64,000 nt of DNA from Thuidium tamariscinum (taxonomy: Eukaryota > Streptophyta > Bryopsida > Hypnales > Thuidiaceae). The notes below the pieces were generated by a model, which saw only the letters and a list, made by a program, of their open reading frames with translations, was not told the origin of the DNA and searched no databases. The DNA is taken from assembly GCA_947034885.2 (NCBI GenBank), contig OX344756.2, positions 23,915,489 through 23,979,488 of the forward strand, given 5' to 3'. The first letter of the stretch is position 1, and every line of letters begins with the position of its first letter. This document shows positions 3,546 to 34,100 of this stretch, one piece after another. The position numbers were made by a program, and so were the translations under genes.

Positions 3546-4117
3546 TCTATTGTGGATGTGGTTTGTTTTGACTCTGGCTCCTGCTCAGTATGTGTCTGCT
3601 CCGGCTGTCTTGTCTTCAAGGATCCTCTCGAAGATCCCTTGGCCTTTTTTGACGATTGGATCGGAGAGGCCTGTTGGCTCAGTCTCCATCCAGCTTGAGT
3701 TTCTTCAACCTCGATTCCTGCCCTTTCAGCCAGTAGTATGTTCGCCTTAGATCTCCCTCTCCAGTGTGCTAGCCTTTGGATCGTATCTGTTGCGTGCTAA
3801 GTGTACCTCAGGTTGGTCGGGCATTTCGCCTTCTTAGTGACTTTGACTGCCGCAAGGACCGTTAGTTCATATACTCCATCCTGTTCGTCCCATTTGGCCG
3901 ACCATTGAACCGACTCCCATCTGTGAAGATTGGGTGGTTTTCAGATTGTGGCACGAAGGTATGTCTGGATATTTTCAAAGATCTTGTTCTTGATTGTTTC
4001 CACGTCCAGATCTGCTCCACCGAATACTATCTGCAGTGGCTTGATAATCCCCACTGTGTTTAGTATTTGGTCTAATAATAACACATGGCCTTCCTCGTAA
4101 TCCTTATATAAAACTGG

Positions 4118-4561
4118 CTAGATGGACAGGTATTTCTTCCCCGTGCTGGGAATCTGTAGACCATTTGTTTTGAAGATTTCTGATAATGTGGCATTTCCCC
4201 ACATGTTCCTCCATTCTTGTGGTAGGTGTGTTGATAGTCTCTTTGTTTTCTGCCCCAAAATTTTGCCTTTGAGAGGGTTTGCTTCCATGAACCTAGCTGG
4301 TTCCTCTAACGGCAGTTCTTTGTCTCGACTGATTCCATGCAGGATGCATGCCGGCCCTTGCATCTCCACCGGTTCTTGCTCCTGCTCCCAGTCCGTTTTC
4401 TTCTCTGTCTTGCTGAGACCTCCCTGCCGTTTCAGCTTCTGTGCTCTTTCTAGAGCCGAAAATTCTTTTGTTATTAATGCTCCGGTGAAGCCTTCCCCGG
4501 TCTCTGCTTGTTCCGCTGCTTCTTCCATCTCAAGGTCTCCTGAATCTGGCCCCTGAACCAT
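4118..4561 (-). pseudogene. LINE ORF1 tail/spacer remnant
   Basis: This 147-codon open frame lies between ORF1 and the endonuclease fragment on the same strand. It is rich in Glu, Lys and Gln and has no recognisable domain. It fits the poorly conserved C-terminal tail of plant L1 ORF1 proteins or the spacer before ORF2. Frame breaks separate it from both neighbours. A long ORF on the opposite strand is only a shadow of it. Confidence 0.4.
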
Positions 4562-4891
4562 CTCCGGGGTTGTCTATATTGATTTTGATTCTATGAGTTT
4601 CCTCCACGGATGGATGTTATTCCTCTCCGCCTATTCCATTGCCAAGCTGTCTGTCTGTACGAACACTAGCTACTCCGGGCCCTGTTCGATCTCCGAGTAT
4701 TCCTGTATGGGATAGGTTGCTATCTCCTGAGGGGCTTTACTGATCGTTCTCGGGTCTATTTGTCTCGGTACTATGTGTGTCGAGATCGTGCTCTCTCGCT
4801 GCTCTAGTTGAGATCTCAATCCTTCTACTACTGTTTGTGCTCCTCTGACCTCAGACCTTGGGCCTTTGTCTACACTAATTGTCGCTTTCGG

Positions 4892-5659
4892 CTACCACTG
4901 TTGTATTATCGGTTTGGCTCTGCCTTCCGGACCCTTTGCCCTGCTCTGCTTTTTGTTTTTCACTAGCTTGAATCCGTCCTGCGTTAAGTAGGATGATTCT
5001 TTATCCATTTCCTTCAATCCTGGGCTCTTGGGTCTCGTTTGCTTTTGTTTATTTAGGGGGCACTCTGATGTGGAGTGTCTGAACTTTCGGCATCTGTTGC
5101 ACTGGTTAGGTAGCCCCAAATAGCTAACCCTTCGTTCGATGAGGGATCCTGCTTCTGCCTCTGGTCTGAGGTCTGGGATCATGATTCCACTCGGTAGTGA
5201 AGTCAGATCGACCACCCTCATGTTGACAATCGGTCCCTCTATCCTTTTGCTTGATATTCGGGGAAGTTCCACCTCCTGTACTTCTCCAATTGAAGCCCCT
5301 AGAGTCTTCAGCCACTCCGTTGTCTGCAGTACTGGATCCAGCTCGGGAAACTGAACCCTAATCGCCGTGCCTATCTGCCAGTTCTTCCCGGGTGTATCTG
5401 GTGTAAATCCCTCTATCCAAGCAAAAAGCTTGATCGTTCGATCTTCGCAATCCTTAGTTCCTTTTTGCAGATAGACCGCTACCTTCTCCGGTGTGTCGAA
5501 TTCCAGCCTGAAGAATCTCTTTGGCAGCAGTTGGATTGTCTTGTAACCGACCTTAAGCATGTCCAACAAGTATATTGTTAAAGCTTCGAATCCACACGAT
5601 ACTCCGAAAAGTTTAGCCAGGACTACCGTCATGCACGCCATCTCCGTATCGTTCTCCAT
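4892..5659 (-). CDS. LINE ORF1 protein with DUF4283-like domain and CCHC knuckle
   Basis: The product of 255 residues is the nucleic-acid-binding ORF1 protein of an L1-type retrotransposon. Residues 1-115 resemble the DUF4283 domain usual in plant LINE ORF1: hydrophobic strands, then FRLEFDTPEKVAVYL and AIRVQFPELDPVL. A zinc knuckle follows at about residues 187-200, CNRCRKFRHSTSEC, giving Cx2Cx4HxxxxC spacing. The tail is basic (KQKQTRPKSPG). The start at 5,659 is an ATG. The frame stops soon after the knuckle, whereas homologues usually have a longer tail, so it may be prematurely closed. It is followed by decayed ORF1-tail and endonuclease pieces. It is a relic open by chance or recent age rather than a host gene. 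Confidence 0.75.
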   Translation of the reverse strand: MENDTEMACMTVVLAKLFGVSCGFEALTIYLLDMLKVGYKTIQLLPKRFFRLEFDTPEKVAVYLQKGTKDCEDRTIKLFAWIEGFTPDTPGKNWQIGTAIRVQFPELDPVLQTTEWLKTLGASIGEVQEVELPRISSKRIEGPIVNMRVVDLTSLPSGIMIPDLRPEAEAGSLIERRVSYLGLPNQCNRCRKFRHSTSECPLNKQKQTRPKSPGLKEMDKESSYLTQDGFKLVKNKKQSRAKGPEGRAKPIIQQW

Positions 5660-5974
5660 TGCGCCTCACTACGAGCTTACTACTGAAAGTACAATCTCTT
5701 GTAGGTAACAGCGGTCTCGTTGTGACAACGGACCTAGGGTTTCAGTCGGAGATCGGTGTCTCCTACCTCGACACGAAATTGACCTCCTATCGTAACTGTA
5801 AGTATTGCATCAAGTTTGCAGACTCTCTCCGTCTCCAAAGAGCCTATCCACTCCCTCTCAAACCTCCTACAGACACAAAAAACTTCTCCTGCAAGATTGA
5901 AACTGTCGGGTCAAACCCTAACTGAAGCTCATGAATTTCGGACCTTCTCTGACTCAAATCGCCTTTCTGCTCAC

Positions 5975-8085
5975 CCGGGGAGATTACTCGTGATTTTTAG
6001 AAAACTACGTGAGTTAAAATATAGGGTCTATTTAATTCAAAGGGGATAAATTTTATATATATGTAGAACTACTATAGAGTTCTTGAAATGTCACATATCC
6101 TATTATATATAAATTAGGCTATGTATAAACATCATTTAGTAGGAATTTTTATTAATAAATTTGCCTTTACAAATAGGATTCATATAAAAAGTTTGTAGTA
6201 CAATGAGTATAGATGTAAACAAAATTTTTTAATTGAATGATAAAACTTACACAATTTAGAGATGTTTTTCAGGAGATTTGTTGTTATCATCAAATAATTC
6301 TAGCCTGTACATACAAATCTTTCCTTGAGTATACCAATTATATAACAACATGTAAGAATCTATTGTTTCAAGACAAAATAATTGAGCTGTAAATTTACAA
6401 TGAGGTTGTACTATGGAGATTTGTGTTCATACAAAGTACTCATTAAGAAATTGATGTAGAGTGTGCAACATTTGCATGCAATCTTTTCTATACTTTGACA
6501 CTACAAACTTTAGATTTGCCTCAACTACTTGAACATACACTTGTAAATGTTTAGAATCATCTTCTTTTTACTAGTGTTTAATAAAAATTCTTTTATTTTT
6601 TGATTCTAAATTCAAAACCATTGTAAATGCATATTGAAAAATAAAATATATAGTCTCCATATTAACCCCTAAAGGACCAAGCCCTGTTTTCTACCCAAAA
6701 ACATTAAAAACTGCCAATTCTATAGCAAAGTGTAAAAAATTAATTAATTTCTTTTCACAAATAACCATATGATCTTATACCTCACTAGTCTAAGATAGTG
6801 TGAAAAAAATTTCAGAATTTTTGACCACGTAGATTGCAAGATACTTGCATTTAAAGTGGGAAACACAAGTTTTTCAGAACATTACGGGACTGGATTTTTT
6901 GACTTTGAACATTTTTAACTTAAAAATTTTGCACTAAAGAGTTTTGAGCTTTAATTATTTCTAGTGCAAAATTGAGTTCAAAATCTAGGGAAAAAAAAGA
7001 AATTCAAAAAAGCTTAATTTTCATTCTTAAAAAAATTGTTAAGAAGAAGTAGGTACAAGATAGAAGGAAAATTTAAAATATTAATATCTTTTAGATGGAA
7101 TTAAAATGCACTAATCCTAATGGTGAGTTTGTTCTAGCAAGTAAACTTAACCATGAAAATTAGATTTTTTGAAAAATTGCAAAAATTGCATCCAGAAATG
7201 AATCCTACAAGTTATTTTTTTCAAGAAAATGCTCTAATTGTCCGAAAAACAAGAATGTCTATAATTTTCTCATAACAAATCCAAATAAAATGAATCAAAG
7301 CTTCCTAGATAGACAAAAATATAATATATAAGAAAGAAAATTCAAAAAAAAAAATTCAAAATTTTTCTTCGCTGCCCAAATTGCCCACCGTCCCCTATTT
7401 TGAGGTTATTTGGGCATAACTTTTGTTCCCGGTCACCGATTGAAAAAAAATATTATATTCCCATGAAGATATTCAATTTTTCTATCTCTGTAAAAAGTTT
7501 CAAAAAATTAGGACAAAAATTCAGCCCGTAGGTACCTGCCCAAAATTGCATTTGTCCTCCGAAGGGACAATGGTCCTTTAGGGGTTAAAATAGAGGTTAT
7601 ATTCTTGGGTTAATCTACAATGTTTTTAGAGTGTTGATTTCTCATATTGTTCATGTTATATTACTAGTATTGGTGTTTTTCTTAGTTTTAATATTATAAC
7701 TATATTTAATATTTTTAAGATGTTTATTATTCACCATATTAGGTTGTTTAGAATACATGGCATAGAATTTAGAATATTTAAAACTATTGTTGCATTTTAC
7801 ATCTTTATTTGTCATTTGAAATTGTACTACAATACAAGTAGTGCATATATTAAAAAAATAGTGTATATATAAGACACTACTTTTATAGTGTGTTGTAAAT
7901 GGATATGAAAAAATTAGACATATAAATTTTATATATAAGATAGCCTAACTATAAAAACCAAATGATTAAATTTATATGTAAAAATAAGGTCAATTTAATT
8001 ACTAAAATGAAGGTAAATAGCCCTATGTTAAATACCCTCTCAACTCAAGTGTATGCTTAAAATTACAAGGAGTGATCTCCCCGGG
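5975..8085. mobile_element. MULE-type non-autonomous TIR element with 9-bp target duplication
   Basis: The ends are inverted copies: CCGGGGAGATTACTCGTGAT on the left, and the complement of the right end reads CCCGGGGAGATCACTCCTTG. The similarity continues imperfectly for about 60 bases. The flanks are TCTGCTCAC (5,966-5,974) and TCCGCTCAC (8,086-8,094), a near-perfect 9-bp target duplication, which is the length made by Mutator-like elements. The interior is AT-rich without a transposase. It carries a nested TTAA element at 6,666-7,584. It interrupts what appears to be the 5' leader of the LINE on its left. Confidence 0.75.
6666..7584. mobile_element. TTAA element, CCCCTAAAGG family (member A)
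   Basis: The element is 919 bp, flanked by TTAA on both sides, with inverted ends CCCCTAAAGGACCA that match perfectly over 14 bases. The interior is AT-rich and noncoding. It shares a block reading agattgcaagata with members B, C2 and F. TTAA target duplication and CCC-starting ends are hallmarks of the piggyBac superfamily, so this is best read as a non-autonomous piggyBac-type element. It is nested inside the MULE element and is therefore younger than it. Confidence 0.8.
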
Positions 8086-9916: not shown

Positions 9917-10841
9917 CCCCTAAAGGACCAACATGCCTTTTTTGGCAACATACCGATTTTGGGCAGGTACGTGTGGCTAGAGATTTCCATGTTTTGGAAC
10001 CAAACTTTAATAGAAGGTGTGGACGAGGAGTATCTTCAAAGCCCAACAATTTTCGTGACTTTTGACTACATACTTGAAAAGTTATTGCATAAAATGTTGT
10101 TTGTTTCTCAACTCGGGCAGTTTGGGCAGATAAAAAAAAATCACTTTTTTTGAAAATAAAAATTTGAAATTTGTTTTATAGATTTATATATACATGGAAA
10201 TCTTTGAATCATTCCATTTGGATTAATGAGTCAAAAGTTATGAAGAATTTTAGTTTGCGGGTAGTTATGGATTCTCTTCTCTAAAATAAACTTTGAAGTC
10301 CTTTATTTTACTCAATTTTCAATATTTTTGAAAAAAAATAAAAACATTGGGTTTAGGTTGTTTATTAAAACATTTGAACCATTGGGATTGGCATTTTTCA
10401 ATTCAATAAATAAATTGTTACCATTTTTGTATTTTGAATCACTCTCTACTTCTTTCTATTTACTATTTTTTTTGTACATGTTGTACAATTCCAAATGATA
10501 TGAAAATTTTCAAGCATGTAGCCAACTTGAATTGGAGAATTAATCCAAAGAGTTGCAATCATTTTGGACAATTTTTCATACAAATGTGGCCTTCTGAAGT
10601 GCAGCTGCCCGGATTTTCGCAGTGGAAAAAAAATGATTTTTGTAACTTCAAACACTAATATCTTGCAATCTACATGGTGGAACTTTCTGAAATTTTTTCT
10701 ACATCTTCCCAAACTAGTTCACTAAAAGATCCTACGGTTACATATGTCAAAAAATGTTTTTTTTCTGAAATTTGGTAGCTGTCCTAGAAATTACAGTTTT
10801 GGAGCAGTTTTTGTGGAAACATAGTTGCGGTCCTTTAGGGG
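9917..10841. mobile_element. TTAA element, CCCCTAAAGG family (member B)
   Basis: The element is 925 bp with TTAA at 9,913-9,916 and 10,842-10,845 and inverted ends CCCCTAAAGGACC. Its interior, read in the reverse sense, matches members C2 and F, including ccgtaggatctt and agattgcaagata blocks. The short ORFs at 10,434-10,712 follow no domain and lie inside a noncoding repeat, so they are not called. Confidence 0.8.
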
Positions 10842-12752: not shown

Positions 12753-13693
12753 CCCTTGAAGTTTTTTCACGATATTTTCACCAAAAATGCTCCGAAACTA
12801 CCATTTCTAATACAAGTGCAATTTTTTTAAAACACATTTTCGACTCATCTAACCGTAGGATCTTGTAGTAAGGTAGTTTGTAAACATGTGGAAAAAATTT
12901 CAGAAATTTTCACCGTGTAGATTGCAAGATATAAGCGTTTGAATTGACAAAAATTGTTTTTTTATCCCTGCGACAATCTGGGCAGCTGCACTTCACAAGG
13001 TCATATTTGTGTGGAAAAAATTTCAAAATGGTGGTTACTCTTTGAATTCATACTTCAATGCAAGTTGGCTACATTCTCAAAAAATTTCACACCATTTGGA
13101 ATTGTACGACATATAGGAAAAAATAAGTAAGTAGAAAGAAGTAAAAAATGAGCCAAAATACTAAATTGTGAACATTTTATTCATGGAATTGAAAATTTTC
13201 AATCCCAATGGTTAAAATGTTGTAATAAACAATCTACACCTTCTGTTTTTATTTTTTTTCAAAAATATGTAAAATTGAATTAAATGAAGAATTTCAAACT
13301 TTTTTTGTATTGTAGAGATTCTTTAACTGACCGCAAACTACCGCAAACTCAAAATCTTCATAACTTTTGACTCATTGATCGCAATGAGTCAATTCAAAGC
13401 TTTCCATGTCTGTATAAACCTAAAGAACCAATTTCAAATTTCACTTTTTAAGAAAAAGTTTTTTTGAATAAGTTTTTCCATCTGCCCGGGCTGCCTACCA
13501 AGTAAAGAAAACAACATATCCTATCATAGCTTTTTAACCATGAAGTCAAAAGTTATGAAAATTGTTGGGCCTTAAAGCTACTTTTTGAACACACATTGTA
13601 TTAAAATTTCAAAGGAAAAAAATAAAAATTCCATCCGTAGTGAGCTGCCCAAAAAATTTATAATCTCAGAAAATGTTGTTTAGGCTTTAGGGG
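12753..13693. mobile_element. TTAA element, CCCCTAAAGG family (member C2)
   Basis: The right end is intact (complement CCCCTAAAGCCTA, then TTAA at 13,694-13,697). The left end is decayed, CCCTTGAAG after TTGA. The interior is a close relative of the reverse complement of member B, sharing taaccgtaggatcttgtag and the gattgcaagata block. The length is about 941 bp. Confidence 0.65.
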
Positions 13694-16150: not shown

Positions 16151-16767
16151 GCATTACACTCACATATTGTAGTCCTGCCTGTAGCCAAAACCTTACTTCC
16201 AAGAACATGCAAGGCACCAGATGTCCTCGACTTCTTCTTCCTCATCACCAAGTCCGAAAATATCGTTTGCAACAAATATTGTCAGTGCGAATGCGTCTGT
16301 AGTTTGAGATTACTTAAGGTTTGCCTTACTTAGATATTGCCCAATAGTCAAGTTCACCTAAAACCAACACAAATCCTGAAGTGAAGTTGATATACATTCT
16401 CAAAATCAGTTTATGCTTCTCCAGCAAATTTTGAGAGTGTCACATTGAGGTTTGCACTTCAAGAAAGATAGTGCTTTCGAAACACACCTGGCCATGGACA
16501 TTGGTAATTTAATGTCAATGTAACACTAGTGGTCTGATCACGGAAATCGGGGATGGAGGAGTGCGGCCCTGGAAATGGCGGAGCGGAGGGGGAGACTGGT
16601 CTCTGCTCTTTTAGTCTGATGTTGTTTGGAAATAAATCCTTTGCTTGCTTTATCCATGTCTACTAGTATCTCTTTGTGAAGCTTATGTTTGCCTGACAGC
16701 CAACTCGATGAGATACTACCAACTCGATGAGACGTTCAGGCCATTCTTTAATTCAATCCAAAACAGA
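16151..16767. other. Intergenic stretch left of the piggyBac pair
   Basis: No gene is supported. A small direct repeat (ccaactcgatgaga twice) lies near 16,700-16,730. The last bases before the transposon are aaaacaga followed by the TTAA target. Confidence 0.4.
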
Positions 16768-16771
16768 TTAA

Positions 16772-19700
16772 CCCTTAAATGACCCTGTGATTTCTGGGTG
16801 AAGCACGCGTCCTCAGAGAAGCTTATAGATCCGGAATTTCTGGAATTATTTGCTGCATGTTTTGGTGTACGTCACCGTACTGATTGAAACTAGGGTCTTC
16901 ACACGACATACAGAAAATTTTAGTCACAAATTTGGGTCCAAAACGACATCAAATTCAGGGGTGATTCGGGGGGTTTCTGGAGTCGTTGCAAGTAGTTTTC
17001 AGACCTCCGTTGCACTTCGAGAGCTCCTGCTAACTTATGAAGGCAAATATCAAGATGAAACTTGTTGCTTTTGGTAGGGCTCAAGATACTCTTTGCTTAT
17101 GCCAAAAAAAATTTTGGGATGAGACATCGTACATTGCCTGCGGAAAGGCTAAACTTACAGGTGTCAAACAAAGCCGATGCATGGAAAGCAGCTTCCGAAA
17201 TTTATTGAAAAAAATTGGGGATGATGAAGGGTGATCCGAACGGTGTGCATAAAGTCTGTGAATATACCCCATGCCCCAAAAAATTTCATACCAATCTAAC
17301 CGTGCATTTCACTGAAAATCAATTAGCAAAACAACGAAGCAGACAACCCGGAGAAGCGAAGGGTGGCTACGGCGGGAAGCTGCCGTGGCAGTTCACGATC
17401 GAACGAGAGACCCGCGCATAAGGTGTCCTGTCAATGGAACTTGGCGGGGTGGGTTTGCCAGATAAGCGCTCGTACTAACTGCTTCCCGCGCCCCCACTGC
17501 GCTAAACGCACGACAGTTACAAAGTCGCAACAAGATGGGCGGGCGTAGACACAGAGGACTAAATTCTCTCTGAAAATCAACATGGCTTCACAGTAAAAAA
17601 ACATGTGTATACACTTGCTCCAAAATTGAAGTAACCCACAACATCATTATGCAGAAAATTTCATCGCATTCATGACTGTTTCAAAAACATCGTTTATCTC
17701 TTCCAAAATCACGACTACTGATCATTCATGCCAATTCTAAATAGTTCTTCGACAAAATCATCTGAAAATGCTGAAGGTTGCTACCCTGAAATTCCTGCAA
17801 AAAAAACAAAAGGACACCTATCCAAACCTAACAGATGTCCTAACCAAACTCCGATAAAGACTCCGAACAACAAGGCTACCATGCTAGCGTGAAGGGAAAC
17901 ACACTCTACATCAAAATTGCAATCGCTGCAACCAAGCGTCCAACCCGCCTGTCCAACCCGCCTAAAAGTATCGATACTTGCCGCTGCACTCTCCGAAGCG
18001 TCCACTGGAAGAATTCATGACGGCCAGATTGCCAGCGACACTTCTCTTCACCGTCACACCTGAATTCGACCTGCAAGAAATTTTCATTTGAGAACTTTTG
18101 CAACATATTTGGGGATTGTATGAACCCTTATGAAACACTCTCCTTCGCACATATATGCGCCCCTACATCCTGGACAGATTCGTATCTGCTTTCTTCTGCA
18201 TATTACACATTTGGCACGAAGTCGTGAGTGCCTTGCGGAGTAGTGCAGTCCATGGTCAATCCGATTGAAGGAGGCAGCAGTTCGTCCAGGCACCACTTGA
18301 GGGTCACACAAATACGTTGCCACTTCATAATGGAATTCAACTCGAGAAACAACATGCTTCTGCCCGGTTGCGATTGCATGAGCCTTGTAGAGTATGTAGG
18401 CATTTCCCAAGCTAGAATCCAAGATAAATAGTAGCAAACGATGCCACCACTTGTGGCTGCGCAATTGAGCTGTATACTCCATACGGCATTGGTCTACTAG
18501 GTCAACCCCACGCATCATTTTCTGATACTCCACAGCTATTGGAGAAGTGTGGTACTGCCTTCTCCCCTCAAACTTCGTCCATCTATAGCACAATGTGCCT
18601 TTCTGAACTGGATCAGTGGATGTACTCAGAAGACATACGGGAATGCGATCATACCAAACTACCGCTGCCATGCGGCGAGAGCGGTGCATAAACACTATCA
18701 AGCCACCGCGGTCAGCAGATGCATGCGCAAAGGTTCCCAAATTGGGTGGCATCCCAGTTCTCTTTGGTAGAACCGTCCCAGTTGCATGGAAACCTTGCTG
18801 TAAGAGGTCATCGAAAAGATGCGGTGAAGTAAAGAATCTATCCGTAATTATAATGTGACCTAGTCCCTTGAGGTCTGATACCAAGTCTAGCACTACCTTA
18901 CGGCCAAGATCTTTTTCAGCCTTACTACCCTTCCGTCCAGTGTATACTTGCAAATTGTATACATATCTGGTCTCACTATCTGCACAACACCATACTTTGA
19001 TACCATATTTAATCGGTTTATTCTTCATGTATTGCTTTATATTGCACCTGTGGCCACTATAAGGGATCATTACTTCATCAACGCTAAGATAGCACTTACA
19101 GTTATACAATTGCTTAGAAATCAACACGAAGGACTCTACTAACCAACGAACCTTAGCTATCTTATCGTAATTTGGGTCAGCTTTATCTGTCACTAACGTG
19201 GAATTATCGACCAAATGGATGTTCCTACTAATCGCTTCAAAGCGAGCTCTTCGCATAGCAGCTTTGACCAAAGGACACCCAAAAAAGTTTCTTTGATCCC
19301 AGTACAAACGGTTGTTTGGAAGTTTCTTTAGTCCTAGCATTATACATACCCCAAACCAACACTTCAGTTCCTTCGGAGATAGGTCCTTCCAATTCAACCC
19401 TCCATTCGATTTCAATGGATTACGATACCTTAGTTGTCGAGCGTAGAGATTAGTTTGGTCACAAATTTTCGTCAATGTCTCTACTGACCAGAACTGATTG
19501 AAGAATTCATGCATGCTTATAGGGCGGCGGCTCATTCGACGAACAGGCCCGGGAGTTGGGCCTGTAAACGGATAGCGATCTGGTAAAAGAGTGGTATTGA
19601 GGTCCTCCCAATGAATAGGTGCGTAGCGGTCCTCAAACTCTAATGACTCAAAATCTATATCAGGTTGCGAAAGGATAGTATCATCTACGACTTCAGGATC

Positions 19701-22379
19701 ACTTCCCGCATCAGACACCATCCAGTCAGAATTACCTGAGTCCGAATTACCTTGCCAGTCCACAAAATCCGCCTCCCAGTCTGGATCGCTGCCTTCCTCG
19801 TCAATTCGGTGCACTCCATCATCGAAATAAGTGGGCAGGTTCAAAGTGAATGTGCAATCCGCAATTGCCTCTTCACTGCTAGTCATGAGTCCTTCTTGCC
19901 CTCTCGTCCGAGCAATAGATCCTTCGGCAACAACATATGGACCTTCTTCTGCAGTAGCAGATACACCTCCTTCGCCAGTTGTAGGAACATCCCCTTCCGC
20001 AGCAAGTACACAACTTTCCTTTGCAACGGCATGAGCCCCTAACACTCCGCCAAAATCCACTTTGTACATTTCAAAACCTGTAATGGTATGCACAAATTCA
20101 CGTAATACCTCCCCTAGAAGGAAGTTCTCTGATTCAGCAGTAGGACTCAAGCCCAAGACATGACACGGCACCCAGACATGAGTGGCAACCGTTGCGCTGG
20201 ATTGAAGTAGAGCCGCTTGAAGACCTCCAACATGCATACAAGCTCCTTCATCGCCGCAGGAATCGTACCAACCGAGGCTATCTCGCACTCTTCCAGAACT
20301 GCTTCGATCAGAGCTGACGGACATAGGCCGCTTCCCTTCACGGATCATGCGAAGACGCTGGGCACTCTCACATCCCGATCCAGGGGCTTCCTTACAATCT
20401 GCAAGCGGAGTCGTTACTTCAGCAGTGTTCATGTCGCCAAGTGAAACAACGTCTTCCTCTTCAGTGTCAGTGAGCCCCAAGGTATGCAACCCATGTCGCT
20501 CATCAGCCATTCGGAAAATCAAATTCCGACGCACATTCGTCCTTATGGGTCGAGGTGTCTGGTGATTCTCCACCTGAATTTGAGGCCGAATCCAACCCTC
20601 TGGCGTCCGAATGCCTTGGGGTGGAGCAACAGTTGCAGTCTTCCGAATCTTCTTGCCACGTCCCCGACCGCGTCCTCGACCTTGATCCCTCCCTCTCGGA
20701 ATCGCACTATCAAAATTGTGACCTTCAGTTGAAGGTGCAGGTAGTCCTTTACCTCTTCCGCGCCCTCCTCGTCCCTTCCGAATTACCTCCTCGCCCTCCG
20801 CAGATTGTCCCCCCCCCCTTCACATGCCCCATCCGCCCACCAAAATCATCATCCACGGAATTTTCATAGGGCAAGTGATTTACCCCTCTGCCCTCTTCCA
20901 CCTGGACTTGTTCGTCTACCATGTTTGCATTGCCCCTCTGCCGCCTGAATTGATTGCTTGTCTTCGGCTTGTTTCCAGCAAAACTCCCTTTTTCGACAAG
21001 GTCTGAATTTTGAGTGCCCAGTTGATTCATCGCTATCGGAAGACTTTGAATTGATGCGACATCCACCAATGCTTGCTGCCCGATTGCGAACAAGTCCAGC
21101 CTCCTTCGGTTGGGGTGGTGGCGCAATTGGGGGGACGAAGGGCTCGTTGGATTTTCGCACGGTCTCCCCTGCGACATGGGTGACTCTGCCGAATTCGGTC
21201 CTCCGAAGCTTGCCCCCTCCTGCGTCAGCTTCTTCAATCGCTCTCTCTCCTTCCGCTTCACCCGCCTTCTGCAAGTTGGAGAGCGGATGAGCAGCCTCCC
21301 CTGCGCTGCTACGCGGGCCGCCTCCTTGGCCGATAATTGGCCGCTCATCTTCGTCCGGCCAGACTTCTCTCGCAACGTGGAATACCTCGTCAAGAAAGTC
21401 ACGCCTCTTCTTCCAACCAAGGATGAAGGCGATATTGCTATAAAATAGAATTCGGAAATTCCTGGCCCTCACTACCTCAGGTAGACGATGAATTCTTTTG
21501 CAGCGGGGAAGCGACAACAAGTGCCTATCGTCTAACAAATTGAGGATCCGCTTCACCTGATTCTCTGTTGCCTCTATGCCTACAAGCCAAGCGTGAAGCA
21601 CAAGCGCTTGCTCAAGTCGAGAGGGAGGGAATTGACATTCAAAGGCGCTGCATAAATTCTCCATGGCGCAGAGTGCTCAATTCTATTGGCAGTACGCATG
21701 AAAGCAAAACTTCGAGGATGAGAAGTAGTGCGGAGTGAGAAAAAAATCGCAGACAATCCTTCAAAACCCGAACCCACTACCTGGATTGATGAGCCGCAAG
21801 CAATCCCCGCCTGACGGATTGTGACCTCGCCGCTTTCGCTTCCTCACGCGGTCGATTGTCGCCATCGCTACGGCACAGCCTTCTCCTCCCTCCCAATTTC
21901 CACTCCTCCCTCTCATATGTCCTACCTTGGATCCAAAGCTTGAGAACAACGACTTGCTGCAATTTGGACACAGTACGAAACCCTTGTCCTGCATTTCCGT
22001 TTTGAAAATTGTTTCCAAAGTGTCTCTGCAGCGCTCAAGCTCAAGCTGTGCAATAAAAAACAATATTTGCGTGGCGGGAACGCAATGTCATTGTCGACGG
22101 AACGCAACGGCCTTTCCCCGGGTCGTGCCACCTCGTACCCGAGTAAACATCTGAGCTGGCAAGGTCCCGCCAACCCTAACCAGGGACCCTCCCTACACAT
22201 TTTGCCCTACCCTAAATGAAATACACATCAGTTGTAAAATCTGATTGCACCTGTGGATTCCTCACTGTAAGCGCTTCAATTCTTATGTTTTCAACTTGGT
22301 CTAAAAAATTCCAGATTTTGCACTATTTAGCTTACAAAAAAGCTCGAGGACGTTTTCTGTCCCCAGGGTCATTTAAGGG
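16772..22379 (-). mobile_element. piggyBac-superfamily transposon, left copy
   Basis: The element is bounded by TTAA at 16,768-16,771 and 22,380-22,383 and has 16-bp inverted ends CCCTTAAATGACCCTG at both termini. The transposase gene runs leftwards. Both the TTAA duplication and CCC-starting ends are standard for piggyBac. It is a near-identical copy of the element at 22,697-28,303, so both moved recently or one arose from the other. Its transposase frame is broken by one extra base in a run of C on the plus strand near 20,809-20,818. Confidence 0.95.
18084..21664 (-). pseudogene. piggyBac transposase gene, frameshifted copy
   Basis: Read on the minus strand, this is the same gene as the intact copy at 23,412-26,991. 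A run of ten C residues (plus strand, about 20,809-20,818), against nine G in the sister copy, shifts the frame. The upstream piece (to 20,749) therefore ends early. The downstream piece (829 codons open from 20,573, first ATG at 20,510) still contains the complete catalytic core and the C-terminal finger. The catalytic domain could be translated from an internal ATG. One replacement (Ala for Val, base 20,401) and silent changes separate it from the sister. A sequencing or assembly error in the homopolymer cannot be excluded. Confidence 0.85.
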
Positions 22380-22383
22380 TTAA

Positions 22384-22692
22384 GGGAGGAGGTCCTACAA
22401 TGGATCATCTAAGGGCTGAAACAGAATTCCAGGGAAGTAAAACTTCTAGAAATATTCTTCAGCAAATTTTCCTTGAAAGACAAGTAGAATTGACATCTAA
22501 CCCAATTTGTTTCATATTTTTTGGAGCTTTGTGGAATTAGTTATCAAATTTTGAAGTTGAAGTGGCATAGGGCTCTAAAATGGAGCATTGCCTAAAATGT
22601 ACACAGTTTTTACACCACTGAAGGCTATGAAAAAGAAACACGTACAAACTGTCTACATCTAAGATAGGGCTCCATTTTTAGGACCTCCTCCC
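22384..22692. mobile_element. MITE M1, copy 1 (spacer of the palindrome)
   Basis: The 309-bp sequence starts GGGAGGAGGTCCTA and ends with its inverse TAGGACCTCCTCCC, and is flanked by TTAA on both sides. Its reverse complement aligns along its length with 33,778-34,100, sharing a block such as cttcaacttcaaaatttgat. It has no ORF. TTAA and GGG-starting ends leave the superfamily open. It lies exactly between the 5' ends of the two piggyBac elements. Confidence 0.85.
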
Positions 22693-23411
22693 TTAACCCT
22701 TAAATGACCCTGGGGACAGAAAACGTCCTCGAGCTTTTTTGTAAGCTAAATAGTGCAAAATCTGGAATTTTTTAGACCAAGTTGAAAACATAAGAATTGA
22801 AGCGCTTACAGTGAGGAATCCACAGGTGCAATCAGATTTTACAACTGATGTGTATTTCATTTAGGGTAGGGCAAAATGTGTAGGGAGGGTCCCTGGTTAG
22901 GGTTGGCGGGACCTTGCCAGCTCAGATGTTTACTCGGGTACGAGGTGGCACGACCCGGGGAAAGGCCGTTGCGTTCCGTCGACAATGACATTGCGTTCCC
23001 GCCACGCAAATATTGTTTTTTATTGCACAGCTTGAGCTTGAGCGCTGCAGAGACACTTTGGAAACAATTTTCAAAACGGAAATGCAGGACAAGGGTTTCG
23101 TACTGTGTCCAAATTGCAGCAAGTCGTTGTTCTCAAGCTTTGGATCCAAGGTAGGACATATGAGAGGGAGGAGTGGAAATTGGGAGGGAGGAGAAGGCTG
23201 TGCCGTAGCGATGGCGACAATCGACCGCGTGAGGAAGCGAAAGCGGCGAGGTCACAATCCGTCAGGCGGGGATTGCTTGCGGCTCATCAATCCAGGTAGT
23301 GGGTTCGGGTTTTGAAGGATTGTCTGCGATTTTTTTCTCACTCCGCACTACTTCTCATCCTCGAAGTTTTGCTTTCATGCGTACTGCCAATAGAATTGAG
23401 CACTCTGCGCC

Positions 23412-24212
23412 ATGGAGAATTTATGCAGCGCCTTTGAATGTCAATTCCCTCCCTCTCGACTTGAGCAAGCGCTTGTGCTTCACGCTTGGCTTGTAGGCAT
23501 AGAGGCAACAGAGAATCAGGTGAAGCGGATCCTCAATTTGTTAGACGATAGGCACTTGTTGTCGCTTCCCCGCTGCAAAAGAATTCATCGTCTACCTGAG
23601 GTAGTGAGGGCCAGGAATTTCCGAATTCTATTTTATAGCAATATCGCCTTCATCCTTGGTTGGAAGAAGAGGCGTGACTTTCTTGACGAGGTATTCCACG
23701 TTGCGAGAGAAGTCTGGCCGGACGAAGATGAGCGGCCAATTATCGGCCAAGGAGGCGGCCCGCGTAGCAGCGCAGGGGAGGCTGCTCATCCGCTCTCCAA
23801 CTTGCAGAAGGCGGGTGAAGCGGAAGGAGAGAGAGCGATTGAAGAAGCTGACGCAGGAGGGGGCAAGCTTCGGAGGACCGAATTCGGCAGAGTCACCCAT
23901 GTCGCAGGGGAGACCGTGCGAAAATCCAACGAGCCCTTCGTCCCCCCAATTGCGCCACCACCCCAACCGAAGGAGGCTGGACTTGTTCGCAATCGGGCAG
24001 CAAGCATTGGTGGATGTCGCATCAATTCAAAGTCTTCCGATAGCGATGAATCAACTGGGCACTCAAAATTCAGACCTTGTCGAAAAAGGGAGTTTTGCTG
24101 GAAACAAGCCGAAGACAAGCAATCAATTCAGGCGGCAGAGGGGCAATGCAAACATGGTAGACGAACAAGTCCAGGTGGAAGAGGGCAGAGGGGTAAATCA
24201 CTTGCCCTATGA
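23412..24212 (+). CDS. Overlapping 5' ORF of the piggyBac element, possible N-terminal exon
   Basis: An ATG-initiated frame of 266 codons overlaps the start of the transposase frame in another phase. Its first 110 residues look protein-like (RIHRLPEVVRARNFRILFYS, then WKKRRDFLDEVFHVAREVW), while the rest is low in complexity. It may supply the N-terminus of the transposase through splicing. A donor after GAG at about 23,690 (gag/gtattc) and an acceptor in gtcgcag/gggaga near 23,910 would join the two frames in phase. Further upstream, a CPNC-containing stretch (from about 23,013) ends in a donor-like aag/gtagga at 23,151. I cannot tell whether it is a separate small protein or an exon. Confidence 0.45.
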   Translation: MENLCSAFECQFPPSRLEQALVLHAWLVGIEATENQVKRILNLLDDRHLLSLPRCKRIHRLPEVVRARNFRILFYSNIAFILGWKKRRDFLDEVFHVAREVWPDEDERPIIGQGGGPRSSAGEAAHPLSNLQKAGEAEGERAIEEADAGGGKLRRTEFGRVTHVAGETVRKSNEPFVPPIAPPPQPKEAGLVRNRAASIGGCRINSKSSDSDESTGHSKFRPCRKREFCWKQAEDKQSIQAAEGQCKHGRRTSPGGRGQRGKSLAL

Positions 24213-26991
24213 AAATTCTGTGGATGATGATTTTGGTGGGCGGATGGGGCATGTGAAGGGGGGGGGACAATCTGCGGAGGGCGAGGAGGTAATTCGGAAG
24301 GGACGAGGAGGGCGCGGAAGAGGTAAAGGACTACCTGCACCTTCAACTGAAGGTCACAATTTTGATAGTGCGATTCCGAGAGGGAGGGATCAAGGTCGAG
24401 GACGCGGTCGGGGACGTGGCAAGAAGATTCGGAAGACTGCAACTGTTGCTCCACCCCAAGGCATTCGGACGCCAGAGGGTTGGATTCGGCCTCAAATTCA
24501 GGTGGAGAATCACCAGACACCTCGACCCATAAGGACGAATGTGCGTCGGAATTTGATTTTCCGAATGGCTGATGAGCGACATGGGTTGCATACCTTGGGG
24601 CTCACTGACACTGAAGAGGAAGACGTTGTTTCACTTGGCGACATGAACACTGCTGAAGTAACGACTCCGCTTGTAGATTGTAAGGAAGCCCCTGGATCGG
24701 GATGTGAGAGTGCCCAGCGTCTTCGCATGATCCGTGAAGGGAAGCGGCCTATGTCCGTCAGCTCTGATCGAAGCAGTTCTGGAAGAGTGCGAGATAGCCT
24801 CGGTTGGTACGATTCCTGCGGCGATGAAGGAGCTTGTATGCATGTTGGAGGTCTTCAAGCGGCTCTACTTCAATCCAGCGCAACGGTTGCCACTCATGTC
24901 TGGGTGCCGTGTCATGTCTTGGGCTTGAGTCCTACTGCTGAATCAGAGAACTTCCTTCTAGGGGAGGTATTACGTGAATTTGTGCATACCATTACAGGTT
25001 TTGAAATGTACAAAGTGGATTTTGGCGGAGTGTTAGGGGCTCATGCCGTTGCAAAGGAAAGTTGTGTACTTGCTGCGGAAGGGGATGTTCCTACAACTGG
25101 CGAAGGAGGTGTATCTGCTACTGCAGAAGAAGGTCCATATGTTGTTGCCGAAGGATCTATTGCTCGGACGAGAGGGCAAGAAGGACTCATGACTAGCAGT
25201 GAAGAGGCAATTGCGGATTGCACATTCACTTTGAACCTGCCCACTTATTTCGATGATGGAGTGCACCGAATTGACGAGGAAGGCAGCGATCCAGACTGGG
25301 AGGCGGATTTTGTGGACTGGCAAGGTAATTCGGACTCAGGTAATTCTGACTGGATGGTGTCTGATGCGGGAAGTGATCCTGAAGTCGTAGATGATACTAT
25401 CCTTTCGCAACCTGATATAGATTTTGAGTCATTAGAGTTTGAGGACCGCTACGCACCTATTCATTGGGAGGACCTCAATACCACTCTTTTACCAGATCGC
25501 TATCCGTTTACAGGCCCAACTCCCGGGCCTGTTCGTCGAATGAGCCGCCGCCCTATAAGCATGCATGAATTCTTCAATCAGTTCTGGTCAGTAGAGACAT
25601 TGACGAAAATTTGTGACCAAACTAATCTCTACGCTCGACAACTAAGGTATCGTAATCCATTGAAATCGAATGGAGGGTTGAATTGGAAGGACCTATCTCC
25701 GAAGGAACTGAAGTGTTGGTTTGGGGTATGTATAATGCTAGGACTAAAGAAACTTCCAAACAACCGTTTGTACTGGGATCAAAGAAACTTTTTTGGGTGT
25801 CCTTTGGTCAAAGCTGCTATGCGAAGAGCTCGCTTTGAAGCGATTAGTAGGAACATCCATTTGGTCGATAATTCCACGTTAGTGACAGATAAAGCTGACC
25901 CAAATTACGATAAGATAGCTAAGGTTCGTTGGTTAGTAGAGTCCTTCGTGTTGATTTCTAAGCAATTGTATAACTGTAAGTGCTATCTTAGCGTTGATGA
26001 AGTAATGATCCCTTATAGTGGCCACAGGTGCAATATAAAGCAATACATGAAGAATAAACCGATTAAATATGGTATCAAAGTATGGTGCTGTGCAGATAGT
26101 GAGACCAGATATGTATACAATTTGCAAGTATACACTGGACGGAAGGGTAGTAAGGCTGAAAAAGATCTTGGCCGTAAGGTAGTGCTAGACTTGGTATCAG
26201 ACCTCAAGGGACTAGGTCACATTATAATTACGGATAGATTCTTTACTTCACCGCATCTTTTCGATGACCTCTTACAGCAAGGTTTCCATGCAACTGGGAC
26301 GGTTCTACCAAAGAGAACTGGGATGCCACCCAATTTGGGAACCTTTGCGCATGCATCTGCTGACCGCGGTGGCTTGATAGTGTTTATGCACCGCTCTCGC
26401 CGCATGGCAGCGGTAGTTTGGTATGATCGCATTCCCGTATGTCTTCTGAGTACATCCACTGATCCAGTTCAGAAAGGCACATTGTGCTATAGATGGACGA
26501 AGTTTGAGGGGAGAAGGCAGTACCACACTTCTCCAATAGCTGTGGAGTATCAGAAAATGATGCGTGGGGTTGACCTAGTAGACCAATGCCGTATGGAGTA
26601 TACAGCTCAATTGCGCAGCCACAAGTGGTGGCATCGTTTGCTACTATTTATCTTGGATTCTAGCTTGGGAAATGCCTACATACTCTACAAGGCTCATGCA
26701 ATCGCAACCGGGCAGAAGCATGTTGTTTCTCGAGTTGAATTCCATTATGAAGTGGCAACGTATTTGTGTGACCCTCAAGTGGTGCCTGGACGAACTGCTG
26801 CCTCCTTCAATCGGATTGACCATGGACTGCACTACTCCGCAAGGCACTCACGACTTCGTGCCAAATGTGTAATATGCAGAAGAAAGCAGATACGAATCTG
26901 TCCAGGATGTAGGGGCGCATATATGTGCGAAGGAGAGTGTTTCATAAGGGTTCATACAATCCCCAAATATGTTGCAAAAGTTCTCAAATGA
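23728..26991 (+). CDS. piggyBac transposase (DDE_Tnp_1_7 family)
   Basis: The enzyme cuts and pastes the element at TTAA sites in the nucleus. From the first in-frame ATG (23,728) the product has 1,087 residues; the frame is open further up to 23,656. Residues up to about 300 are disordered and basic, with an Arg-Gly-rich AT-hook-like stretch (RGRGRGRGKKIRK). The middle is acidic (TEEEDVV, DPDWEADFVDW). The catalytic domain follows, with aspartates at D757 (LSVDEVMIP), D836 (IIITDRFFTS) and D949 (RGVDLVDQ), the family's DDD triad. The C-terminus carries a cysteine-rich finger with CVIC, CPGC and CEGEC, the family's DNA-binding module. The protein is longer than animal piggyBac transposases, mainly through the N-terminal extension. 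N-terminal exon structure is uncertain. Confidence 0.92.
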   Translation: MSGQLSAKEAARVAAQGRLLIRSPTCRRRVKRKERERLKKLTQEGASFGGPNSAESPMSQGRPCENPTSPSSPQLRHHPNRRRLDLFAIGQQALVDVASIQSLPIAMNQLGTQNSDLVEKGSFAGNKPKTSNQFRRQRGNANMVDEQVQVEEGRGVNHLPYENSVDDDFGGRMGHVKGGGQSAEGEEVIRKGRGGRGRGKGLPAPSTEGHNFDSAIPRGRDQGRGRGRGRGKKIRKTATVAPPQGIRTPEGWIRPQIQVENHQTPRPIRTNVRRNLIFRMADERHGLHTLGLTDTEEEDVVSLGDMNTAEVTTPLVDCKEAPGSGCESAQRLRMIREGKRPMSVSSDRSSSGRVRDSLGWYDSCGDEGACMHVGGLQAALLQSSATVATHVWVPCHVLGLSPTAESENFLLGEVLREFVHTITGFEMYKVDFGGVLGAHAVAKESCVLAAEGDVPTTGEGGVSATAEEGPYVVAEGSIARTRGQEGLMTSSEEAIADCTFTLNLPTYFDDGVHRIDEEGSDPDWEADFVDWQGNSDSGNSDWMVSDAGSDPEVVDDTILSQPDIDFESLEFEDRYAPIHWEDLNTTLLPDRYPFTGPTPGPVRRMSRRPISMHEFFNQFWSVETLTKICDQTNLYARQLRYRNPLKSNGGLNWKDLSPKELKCWFGVCIMLGLKKLPNNRLYWDQRNFFGCPLVKAAMRRARFEAISRNIHLVDNSTLVTDKADPNYDKIAKVRWLVESFVLISKQLYNCKCYLSVDEVMIPYSGHRCNIKQYMKNKPIKYGIKVWCCADSETRYVYNLQVYTGRKGSKAEKDLGRKVVLDLVSDLKGLGHIIITDRFFTSPHLFDDLLQQGFHATGTVLPKRTGMPPNLGTFAHASADRGGLIVFMHRSRRMAAVVWYDRIPVCLLSTSTDPVQKGTLCYRWTKFEGRRQYHTSPIAVEYQKMMRGVDLVDQCRMEYTAQLRSHKWWHRLLLFILDSSLGNAYILYKAHAIATGQKHVVSRVEFHYEVATYLCDPQVVPGRTAASFNRIDHGLHYSARHSRLRAKCVICRRKQIRICPGCRGAYMCEGECFIRVHTIPKYVAKVLK

Positions 26992-28307
26992 AAATTTCTT
27001 GCAGGTCGAATTCAGGTGTGACGGTGAAGAGAAGTGTCGCTGGCAATCTGGCCGTCATGAATTCTTCCAGTGGACGCTTCGGAGAGTGCAGCGGCAAGTA
27101 TCGATACTTTTAGGCGGGTTGGACAGGCGGGTTGGACGCTTGGTTGCAGCGATTGCAATTTTGATGTAGAGTGTGTTTCCCTTCACGCTAGCATGGTAGC
27201 CTTGTTGTTCGGAGTCTTTATCGGAGTTTGGTTAGGACATCTGTTAGGTTTGGATAGGTGTCCTTTTGTTTTTTTTGCAGGAATTTCAGGGTAGCAACCT
27301 TCAGCATTTTCAGATGATTTTGTCGAAGAACTATTTAGAATTGGCATGAATGATCAGTAGTCGTGATTTTGGAAGAGATAAACGATGTTTTTGAAACAGT
27401 CATGAATGCGATGAAATTTTCTGCATAATGATGTTGTGGGTTACTTCAATTTTGGAGCAAGTGTATACACATGTTTTTTTACTGTGAAGCCATGTTGATT
27501 TTCAGAGAGAATTTAGTCCTCTGTGTCTACGCCCGCCCATCTTGTTGCGACTTTGTAACTGTCGTGCGTTTAGCGCAGTGGGGGCGCGGGAAGCAGTTAG
27601 TACGAGCGCTTATCTGGCAAACCCACCCCGCCAAGTTCCATTGACAGGACACCTTATGCGCGGGTCTCTCGTTCGATCGTGAACTGCCACGGCAGCTTCC
27701 CGCCGTAGCCACCCTTCGCTTCTCCGGGTTGTCTGCTTCGTTGTTTTGCTAATTGATTTTCAGTGAAATGCACGGTTAGATTGGTATGAAATTTTTTGGG
27801 GCATGGGGTATATTCACAGACTTTATGCACACCGTTCGGATCACCCTTCATCATCCCCAATTTTTTTCAATAAATTTCGGAAGCTGCTTTCCATGCATCG
27901 GCTTTGTTTGACACCTGTAAGTTTAGCCTTTCCGCAGGCAATGTACGATGTCTCATCCCAAAATTTTTTTTGGCATAAGCAAAGAGTATCTTGAGCCCTA
28001 CCAAAAGCAACAAGTTTCATCTTGATATTTGCCTTCATAAGTTAGCAGGAGCTCTCGAAGTGCAACGGAGGTCTGAAAACTACTTGCAACGACTCCAGAA
28101 ACCCCCCGAATCACCCCTGAATTTGATGTCGTTTTGGACCCAAATTTGTGACTAAAATTTTCTGTATGTCGTGTGAAGACCCTAGTTTCAATCAGTACGG
28201 TGACGTACACCAAAACATGCAGCAAATAATTCCAGAAATTCCGGATCTATAAGCTTCTCTGAGGACGCGTGCTTCACCCAGAAATCACAGGGTCATTTAA
28301 GGGTTAA

Positions 28308-30627
28308 GGACCTCTAACCTTACGAGATGGGATATGAACAAAATTACATCCACATTTCATACTCCTCCCCAAAGATTCCCACCTTCAAGAAAAGAAGGGA
28401 CATAATTTAATATTTAAGAATTACTTAAATTAATGCTGGTAAAAGTATGACAATTTGAAAATTTCCTGGGAAACCTCAAAAAAACACTTTCTGACTATGT
28501 TTTCACTTTTCAGCAATAATTCAATACTTTGAAGTTGGAATTCGAAGATGTTAAAGCTTGCAGTTTTGAAAGTGTCTTATTCTTCATTCGAATTAAATCT
28601 CTGGACATATCAAACAAAATTATAGTGAAAGAATGCAATGATAGTGACAGTTCCCTCTAGAATCTACTAGAAGATTGTAAGATGATGTGCAATTCCTTTA
28701 GGACTATATACTATCAAGAATGCCAATTTAGACGGAGTACTTATTCATAGTACTAACGATAATGGTAATTTAAAAAACATTGAAAGTTACTAGTGATTTG
28801 AATTAGTGAATCTATTTGAATCTAATTCCTTACACTTTGTAGATATGAGATCAAAATATTTACTGTGGAAAAAATTAGTTGAGAGTGTAAGGGAAAGAAA
28901 AGAGTACAAAAGAACTTGATTTTCATTCTCTGAAATTTTCTTAAGTACAAGTAGGTATACAATGGAAAGAAGATTTATATTGTTTGTAATTTGGAACATG
29001 TCAACATACTAGTCTTAGTGATATTTGAATTTATTTTATAGTCACTTTTCCTTTTTTATGGTTTTAAATATAACTTGTCATTTGTTACATTTAAAAGAAT
29101 TCTCAGTTTCCAATAACCACTGACAATTTCTCTTATGTCATTGGAATGTAGAGCATGTACTATTCAAAATTGAAAGGAAGAGGAGCGTGTACTTAGTGAA
29201 AAGCACAAGAGAATTCGGAGGTGGAAGCAGAAGTTAGAACGGTATGTGTAGTGAATTTAGAAGGTTATTCAATTACTCTACATAAAATGCAATGGTACTT
29301 CCTCAAAGAAATTGAGAAATCCAAAATCAACCACTCAAAGTCTAAAGCCTTTTCTAATGATTTAGAAATTTGCTTTATCTTTAGAAAGAATTAAGCATTT
29401 TGATAAGGTTTTGGGTAAAGAACGTGTTATAAATCACTTAGGAGAAGGAAATACAATGTTACTTATGCATTGAAATATAGAAAACTTTGATCATGGAGGT
29501 GTTGAAAATGTGAAAGTGACTTCAAACCTTTCAATCCTGATTACGCATGTGTAACTTGAAATTATAGTTCCTAAAAAAATATTAAATTGAAGGGCTTAGA
29601 CTACATAACTCCAATCAATCTATGACTCTTCTAAAGTAATTTGTAATATTTGTAAATGAATTTCAAAACTTATTTTTCCAACAACATCTTTAATAATGTG
29701 GAACTTCAAGTGTCTTAAGTATATATGACTACTATAAATCATGATCCATTTGCATTCACATGATATATATGCATTGGGTTGTGAAAAGTTATGGTCTTCA
29801 ATGCTTATGCACAATAACAATGTCCCAATACGCTTATATAGTTGATTTGAAGTCCACTCAATTTGAAGTCATGCTACATTTGAACTATATTATGGACAAG
29901 AAGTAGAGTTTGATTTAAGCGATGTAAGATTTTAAAACTATATTCCTAAACTACATAACTATGTTGGAAAGAAGTTGAATTCTAGAGCATTACATCTCTT
30001 TCCACTGTACAATACAATTTGAAGAGTAAAAAAATGTCCAAAAAAATTTATAGCATTTTTAATAGTTTGGACTACCTTCTTCACAAATCTTAAGTCATTC
30101 AAGGTCAATAGAAGCTATAGTGTTCACTAAAAGAGATGTCCTCTAGAGTCCAATACTAACTATGCAAACATGAGTAAATATACCCTATATTTAATGTCCA
30201 AAAAGAGAAAGAAGTATGAAAGAAAGGAATGAGAAGTATGTTATTACTTTTAAATTTTGAAACTCCATATGTTGATGCTTTTGTTTTTTAATTTTATGTA
30301 GGTACATATTTTTGTGTGGAAACATTGTTTGTATAGATGTAAATTACTAGAGCACACCTATTTTATATAAGAATAAGAAGTTGAAAAGCAAAACAAGAAG
30401 AAATTAAAGGTAATGAAGGATTCAATTTACTTAAAGATTCACATGATGCAATTTCAAATAGAAAGAAATCTCAGAACATGTACGAGCCCCAAAACATACA
30501 ATTCCAATTAATTGCACATAGTGTTCCATAAATTTTTGAATTTGACATCATGGTTCAAATTGGAGTGAAAATAAGTCTTCAGGCACTATTAATTTGGTTG
30601 GATATATGTGATGTGTTTTGAAGTATA
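28308..30627. other. Gene-free AT-rich stretch right of the piggyBac pair
   Basis: The sequence after the TTAA (ggacctctaacc) is the right half of the ancestral insertion site. The 2.3 kb hold no supported ORF, element ends or RNA gene. Short ORFs at 28,790-28,999 and 29,620-29,820 are chance openings. Confidence 0.45.
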
Positions 30628-33777: not shown

Positions 33778-34100
33778 GTAGAAGGCTCTTAAATGGAGTG
33801 GGTTCTAAAATGGTGTCCTACCTTAAATGTATGGTATTTGTACATGTTGCTTTTTCATAGCTTTCAGCAGTGTACTAAGAGTGTACATTTTAGCTAGGAC
33901 ACCATTTTAGAGCCCTATACCCTTTCAACTTCAAAATTTGATAACTAATTCTACAAAGCTCCAAAAAAATGAAACAGCTTAAGTTAAATGTCAATTCCAC
34001 TTATCTTTCAAGGAAAATATACTGAAAAATATTTCAAGATGCTTCACCTTCCCAAAATTCAGTTTCAGTCCTTAGATGGGTGATTACTAAGCCTCCTACC
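33778..34100. mobile_element. MITE M1, copy 2
   Basis: The ends GGTAGAAGGCT and the complement of AGCCTCCTACC are inverted copies of one another. The 323-bp body aligns with the reverse complement of the MITE at 22,384-22,692, with shared blocks such as aacttcaaaatttgataact and catttta-gagcccta. The flanks are TTA and GTA, so the target duplication has decayed. It is more diverged at its ends than copy 1. Confidence 0.75.

Follow-up and report, generated by a model that had tools for sequence, protein, structure and literature searches.

Within the 64,000-nucleotide stretch of the Thuidium tamariscinum genome analyzed here (the window), two near-identical piggyBac elements lie head to head with MITE sequence between them, forming a large palindrome. 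The reading that we tentatively prefer, at a little short of an even chance, is that the right arm arose as a local copy of the left arm, joined precisely at its outer TTAA and by repair on the inner side, where a scar of the donor would remain; the sequence of one locus is what this reading is built on.

Comparison of the window with itself (blastn) revealed that positions 16768–22404 and 28307–22671 constitute a single large inverted repeat, with 99.894% identity over 5,638 columns. As placed by this self-comparison and by alignment, the left element, presumed to be the original, is 5,608 bp long (16772–22379, minus strand), and the right element, presumed to be a local copy, is 5,607 bp long (22697–28303, plus strand). 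All four element ends consist of TTAA followed by CCCTTAAATGACCCTG (16768–16787, 22364–22383, 22693–22712 and 28288–28307), with the TTAA itself at 16768–16771 for the outer (3') end of the left element, and, in the alignment, at 22380–22383 and 22693–22696 for the inner (5') ends of the left and right elements respectively. Three substitutions separate the two elements when these are aligned, at 18987/26088, 20401/24674 and 20857/24219, along with one indel at 20809/24267, where a run of C is one base longer in the left arm; two extra mismatched columns in the alignment of the arms fall within the MITE, outside the elements. The preliminary description of this DNA had proposed a near-identical head-to-head piggyBac pair forming a palindrome around MITE sequence, with complete arms bearing TTAA and matching 16-bp ends and with three substitutions and one indel between them, and it is borne out on each of these points.

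In the genome that was searched (G000; 363 Mb in 19 contigs, including the window), the piggyBac superfamily is abundant and the exact family of the arms is scarce. The exact 20-mer end occurs six times, four of these in the window (0 for the reversed control), and elements with exact ends number three in the 363 Mb, the third being a single copy on contig C1 (L007, C1:14574031–14579645), which is also inserted at TTAA at both ends. When up to three mismatches are allowed, there are 1,316 places in the genome with such ends, versus 32 for the reversed control. A search with the transposase protein returned 50 matches, with three copies at at least 99% (best 42 of 797 candidates scored). Two piggyBac-like ends, with four mismatches each, were also observed at 6662–6681 (plus strand) and 7569–7588 (minus strand) of the window, inverted and ~0.9 kb apart, perhaps marking a non-autonomous element. 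Such ends are plentiful in this genome, yet plant piggyBac is scarcely mentioned in those portions of the literature found; a fern genome paper gives it one table row in the portion available (PMC6890710), and in the corresponding portion of a moss paper the only match was the word "piggybacking" (PMC10619864).

At 20 sites the two arms share a base that the C1 copy lacks, and between themselves they differ at the three substitutions and the indel; the two arms are mutual closest relatives among the three copies. One of the arm substitutions is private to the left arm and two are private to the right. The three copies show 23 substitutions in total, and every one is a C/T difference at a CG or CHG site; such sites account for 37% of C/G positions (p = 1.4e-10), and the pattern is one that would be expected from cytosine methylation. 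If each C/T difference arose by loss of a C to T, the C1 branch takes 11 of the changes, the branch shared by both arms nine, and the individual left and right arms one and two, which, conditional on that polarity, suggests a late split of the arms.

The transposase frames in both arms point outward from the center. In the right arm, the ORF list, Pfam and alignment to structure chains identify an uninterrupted transposase ORF of 1,087 aa (23728–26991, plus strand), which matches Pfam DDE_Tnp_1_7 at 6.4e-80 and has three catalytic aspartates that align with the solved piggyBat and piggyBac chains 9c0f_C and 6x67_C (SVDE, ITDRF and GVDLVDQ); the catalytic positions of piggyBac are given as D268, D346 and D447 in the portion of the source available (PMC7351741). 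The C-terminal tail, which lies beyond the part aligned to solved chains, appears Cys-rich by eye. In the left arm the transposase frame runs for 808 aa from its first ATG (18084–20510, minus strand) and is severed from its upstream part by the C run, which is one base longer here than in both the right arm and the C1 copy, and the protein search indicated one internal TGA in the left-arm copy.

A further ORF lies upstream (23412–23765, plus strand; mirrored in the left arm), with a conserved part of ~118 aa, and overlaps the transposase ORF in another frame, as indicated by matches in relatives and by the codon pattern. This frame of 110–120 aa has matches at 35–68% identity in 13 relatives beyond the three copies (16/20 loci searched), and, counted by eye, is interrupted by a stop before residue 105 in five of the 13, while in all 13 the overlap contains a methionine read in the transposase frame. 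The codon-position pattern against L057 tracks the upstream frame up to 23760 (0.26/0.22/0.50) and after 23770 shows a weak switch to the transposase frame (0.32/0.32/0.40), and the two ORFs could be joined by reinitiation, frameshift or splicing. The upstream ORF is without a Pfam match and is predicted to be all-helical (mean pLDDT 81.5 in the best of five models, which ranged from 51.9 to 81.5); a Foldseek search with the predicted structure gave 45 matches at E ≤ 10 and none at E ≤ 0.001, and thus no confident structural neighbor. Insect piggyBac and piggyBat share with these elements the TTAA target, the DDE_Tnp_1_7 domain and the three aligned catalytic aspartates, but differ in that the host here is a plant, the ORF is 1,087 aa long as opposed to 594 and 578 aa in the solved chains, and a conserved upstream ORF is present in another frame.

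The sequence from 22384 to 22678 (plus strand), between the two elements, was assigned through a family search and an empty site as the left inverted repeat and body of a MITE from a TA-duplicating family, which we take to be Tc1/mariner or Stowaway-like by name. This family gave 4,842 first-look candidates in the genome, of which 40 were scored. Copies L009–L037 start mostly with TA|AGGTAGAAGG and finish with CTACCT|TA, which points to TA as the target duplication, and together with the empty site they display the short inverted repeats, TA duplication and high copy number of TA-duplicating MITEs; the central copy differs from these in being split or flanked by two piggyBac elements.

The left target flank, CAGATTA, occupies 16764–16770, with the TA at 16769–16770 being the MITE target duplication, so the outer TTAA of the left element is made up of a T, this TA and the first A of the MITE. 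Outside the right element, at 28304–28322 (plus strand), is a MITE-like right end, TTAAGGACCTCTAACCT, followed by the TA duplication, with the TTAA at 28304–28307 forming the outer junction of the right element; here TTAAGGACCTCTAACCTTA is identical at 17 of 19 positions to the MITE end TTAAGGACCTCCTACCTTA, as found in L010. A short piece of each 700-bp flank also matches C2, at adjacent positions, and the stretch there (L076) reads CAGATTACGAGATGGG uninterrupted, with the flank halves joining at CAGATTACGAG. L076 agrees with the left flank at 57 of 61 columns, as far as the last A of CAGATTA, and with the right flank at 43 of 43 columns, starting from TTACGAG, and is, on this comparison, a paralogous empty site inside a shared repeat of ~100 bp. 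The match implies that the 16 bases after TTA, up to CGAG at the right side, are an insertion, and, judged against this site, everything between CAGATTA and TTACGAG is shown to be inserted sequence.

Whilst the preliminary description had the MITE lying centrally between the elements, this is correct only in part, as MITE sequence is present there but the MITE-like right end and TA lie outside, at 28304–28322. For the same reason its statement that the composite carries the central MITE does not hold, and on the preferred reading the MITE would be split by the right element. A late insertion of the MITE into a finished head-to-head pair was also considered and would fit the T-TA-A context, but was set aside: the MITE body has private sites against the family consensus (18 columns, eight of them in the misaligned right end) where the arms differ at three, no other scored MITE copy exceeds 96% (40 of 4,842 scored), and a MITE-like end also sits outside the right element.

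Several other features were observed in the window. A diverged copy of the MITE family, ~82% identical and inverted relative to the central one, is present at 33792–34078, and copies of another repeat, 74–84% identical and in both orientations, are present at 10002–10762, 12829–13609, 44000–44450 and 45785–46433. The region 3213–5665 (minus strand) may contain LINE remnants, with a DUF4283-like ORF scoring 24.7 bits, under the cut-off of 27.2, and with a zinc-knuckle-like stretch and an endonuclease-like frame recognized by eye. Pieces of NAC domains (27), one subtilase and one F-box gene were detected, a gene content that points to a land plant.

The inner flank of the right element contains a 14-nt tag, TAGGACCTCCTCCC (22679–22692, minus strand), at the place where the close copy L010 has AATGCCCGCTCCAT. 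The tag matches, at 14 of 14 positions, the inverse of the left MITE end GGGAGGAGGTCCTA at 22384–22397 (plus strand), which adjoins the left element and which sequence comparison suggests as its source; alternatively, the tag may be a natural, unusual MITE right end. A clean insertion in the usual MITE end would be expected to give ...GGGCTCCATTTTAATGCCCGCTCCAT-TTAA, whereas the observed flank is ...GGGCTCCATTTT-TAGGACCTCCTCCC-TTAA, and the MITE part and the tag together account for every base of it. With the right arm omitted, the MITE aligns to L010 over its whole length, apart from a single 14-nt gap. Of 30 loci of the close family that were tried, 29 had a readable right end, and all 29 ends are of the AAGG/AAAG type, with none of TAGG type, which suggests that the inner flank is foreign to the close family's right end; the outer piece TTAAGG, outside the right element, is of the usual type for a right end of the family.

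The end variant TAAGGGAGGAGGTCCT was found at 12 places in the genome, versus 727 for the pattern with two free letters, and the ten other places are not near one another, with only L039 being a close relative of the central MITE. A genome search for other copies of the junctions, as proposed in the preliminary description, found the 19-mer at the junction exactly at this locus only, with four places within two mismatches, this one included (control two). A MITE end running on into AAGGACCTC, which would be the mark of an older nested MITE, was found at no place in the genome at 0 or 1 mismatch, at one place at two mismatches and at 14 places at three (control 0), with the latter half holding most of the mismatches, as expected of random flanks. 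MITE ends do resemble one another, and L052, a diverged relative whose body is 81% identical, has a natural right end that matches the inner flank at 23 of 24 positions, compared with 17 of 24 for the inverted left flank over the same stretch. The exact 14-mer is also present at MITE-like ends in L044, L045 and L049, and these cases together suggest that the tag may be an ordinary, if unusual, MITE end.

On the preferred reading, the left piggyBac would have inserted at a TTAA created where the TA-duplicating MITE met its target, and an inverted copy would later have been made from it, ~300 bp away, at a TTAA inside the right inverted repeat of the MITE family. The right arm would have been donated or templated by the left arm, perhaps by its sister chromatid, with the 3' end joined to the target TTAA by transposase and the other side joined by host repair, in the course of which 14 nt of donor flank may have been gained and 14 nt of MITE lost. 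Such an event would be an aberrant (one-ended or imprecise) local transposition, probably linked to replication. At its outer junction, the right element has TTAA and then a MITE-like end, and its inner flank equals 14 nt of the inverted flank of the left element; the donor-tag reading is kept as the best one because none of the 29 family ends has TAGG, the outer piece is of the usual type, and no doubled end exists at 0 or 1 mismatch. An unbiased local hop would produce the mirrored placement about once in 36 among the TTAAs within 1 kb, and once in 306 within 10 kb.

Cell assays have yielded single-ended piggyBac products, in which a liberated end attacks nearby DNA, according to the portion of the source available, which also reports local hopping of piggyBac to be lower than that of Sleeping Beauty, something that counts against the preferred reading (PMC3952818). 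In mosquitoes, piggyBac hopped locally from one donor line and not from another, as reported in the available portion of that study (PMC6169391). It is possible, albeit doubtful, that piggyBac here multiplies locally by a replicative one-ended route more generally, with the 3' end attacking a TTAA in the vicinity and repair copying the rest together with a few bases of donor flank.

Among the alternatives, an unlikely but not negligible one is a clean local hop beside an unusual MITE, in which a right end of the L052 type already existed, with an older MITE-end remnant beyond it, and the right element entered by a clean insertion at the intervening TTAA. The fit of the L052 right end to the inner flank, the exact 14-mers at the ends of L044, L045 and L049, and a second inverted pair on contig C9 (see below), which consists of clean local insertions, are in keeping with such a hop, and a deletion between GCTCCATTTT repeats would yield the junction from an L052-like end. 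Slippage between these repeats in an L052-like copy is absorbed into this explanation, as is the case where both MITE ends are one rare variant by chance or conversion, and the remnant could stem, for example, from partial deletion of MITEs that had inserted into each other. Several separate quirks are required, however, namely an end type absent in all 29 close relatives, a 17-bp deletion and a MITE-end remnant outside; in addition, no other doubled end occurs in the genome at 0 or 1 mismatch, and the complete identity with the left end becomes a coincidence. A clean insertion at the TTAA of the right repeat, followed by a later break at the inner end that was repaired off the left arm, adding 14 nt of inverted left flank, would account for the tag as well as for the outer TTAA with no need of a one-ended event and would leave the same scar as the preferred reading, and a TCCATT string adjoins the junction in both partners. 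This requires two events, though, and the private changes kept in both arms mean that any conversion was partial or old, and we regard it as improbable.

The TCCATT string near the junction in both partners would equally suit a fold-back template switch without transposase, whereby repair synthesis left the right side of the MITE for the inverted left end, used the left arm as its template and returned at the TTAA, but the chance of this seems slim, as the copy must stop exactly at the outer transposon terminus and at the MITE TTAA, with 4-nt microhomology. Large palindromes are prone to assembly errors, and the preliminary description had raised the prospect that the second arm is an artefact of haplotype joining, to which a fold-back chimaera may be added. 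Either is very unlikely, since the outer flanks are unlike each other and diverge exactly at the element ends, the left and right arms both carry private changes, and each 700-bp flank has a single full-length place at 100% in the genome (9 of 9 and 40 of 72 candidates scored). Two independent ordinary insertions from elsewhere would agree with the outer junctions, both of which resemble ordinary TTAA insertions, but with exact ends on three elements per 363 Mb, any two of the three would lie within 400 bp by chance at ~7e-6, which makes this origin barely credible.

The second inverted pair, at C9:19499872–19505250 and C9:19516383–19521761 (L061 and L062), consists of inverted copies of another, decayed piggyBac with 58% protein identity, which show five differences in 5,379 bp, precise TTAA ends and unrelated flanks, and lie ~11 kb apart. 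No scar was found at the element ends of this pair, which speaks for locality and not for one-endedness. No natural inverted piggyBac pair was found in the literature, as searched by titles and abstract openings. In maize, double Ds, Ds being of the hAT kind, was reportedly traced by English in 1995 to aberrant transposition on sister chromatids, linked to replication, which leaves close inverted copies of one element; close inverted copies are common to both cases, but here they flank a MITE body. The single-ended or bimolecular piggyBac events observed in cells, as presented in the available portion of the source, would be alike on the preferred reading in that one end is transferred and the other junction is aberrant, and would differ in that those were plasmid assays, whereas the palindrome would be a natural, inherited product (PMC3952818).

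The preliminary description had also considered the outer termini fit for moving the composite as a unit. TTAA and the 16-bp repeat are indeed present at both, but by gene orientation both outer ends are 3' ends, which presumably correspond to the piggyBac right end, and a compatible left/right outer pair is not present. No second composite was found either (exact ends on three elements; three copies at at least 99% in the best 42 of 797 candidates scored; the C1 copy single). For native insect piggyBac, RE/RE excises and does not integrate, LE/LE does neither, and a hyperactive enzyme relaxes the rule, according to the available portion of the source (PMC7351741). The composite may conceivably move as a unit, but no sign of this was found, and the consequence of its ends would be as in insect piggyBac, from which it is extrapolated. 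The end typing is based on gene orientation because in the element itself a left-end palindrome is not among the six best-scoring palindromes listed; such a palindromic internal repeat near the left end is plain in the relative L058, with 10 of 11 pairs at bp 14–36, and more weakly in the C9 copy, with 8 of 11. The suggestion that hairpin RNA would arise because the two transposase genes diverge is not sustained, as two genes reading outward give RNAs of the same sense, which do not pair with each other; a hairpin would require transcription running through the palindrome, or antisense transcription.

Large palindromes can promote rearrangement, and transcription across them can yield double-stranded RNA. 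A clean cut-and-paste copy retains no trace of its donor, but here a short donor flank may have travelled along, and if so, this single locus could reveal the donor, the target and the succession of events, with the empty site as a control. If the clean hop beside an unusual MITE is instead correct, the locus would still be a neat example of local inverted insertion, with a second such case in the genome. Should the replicative route hold, inverted pairs and palindromes would be products of a transposon that is nominally of the cut-and-paste kind. If the preferred reading, local copying of the right arm from the left, is right, the locus would be the natural counterpart of a piggyBac failure so far described in vector assays, and would offer a testable way for piggyBac to make large palindromes.
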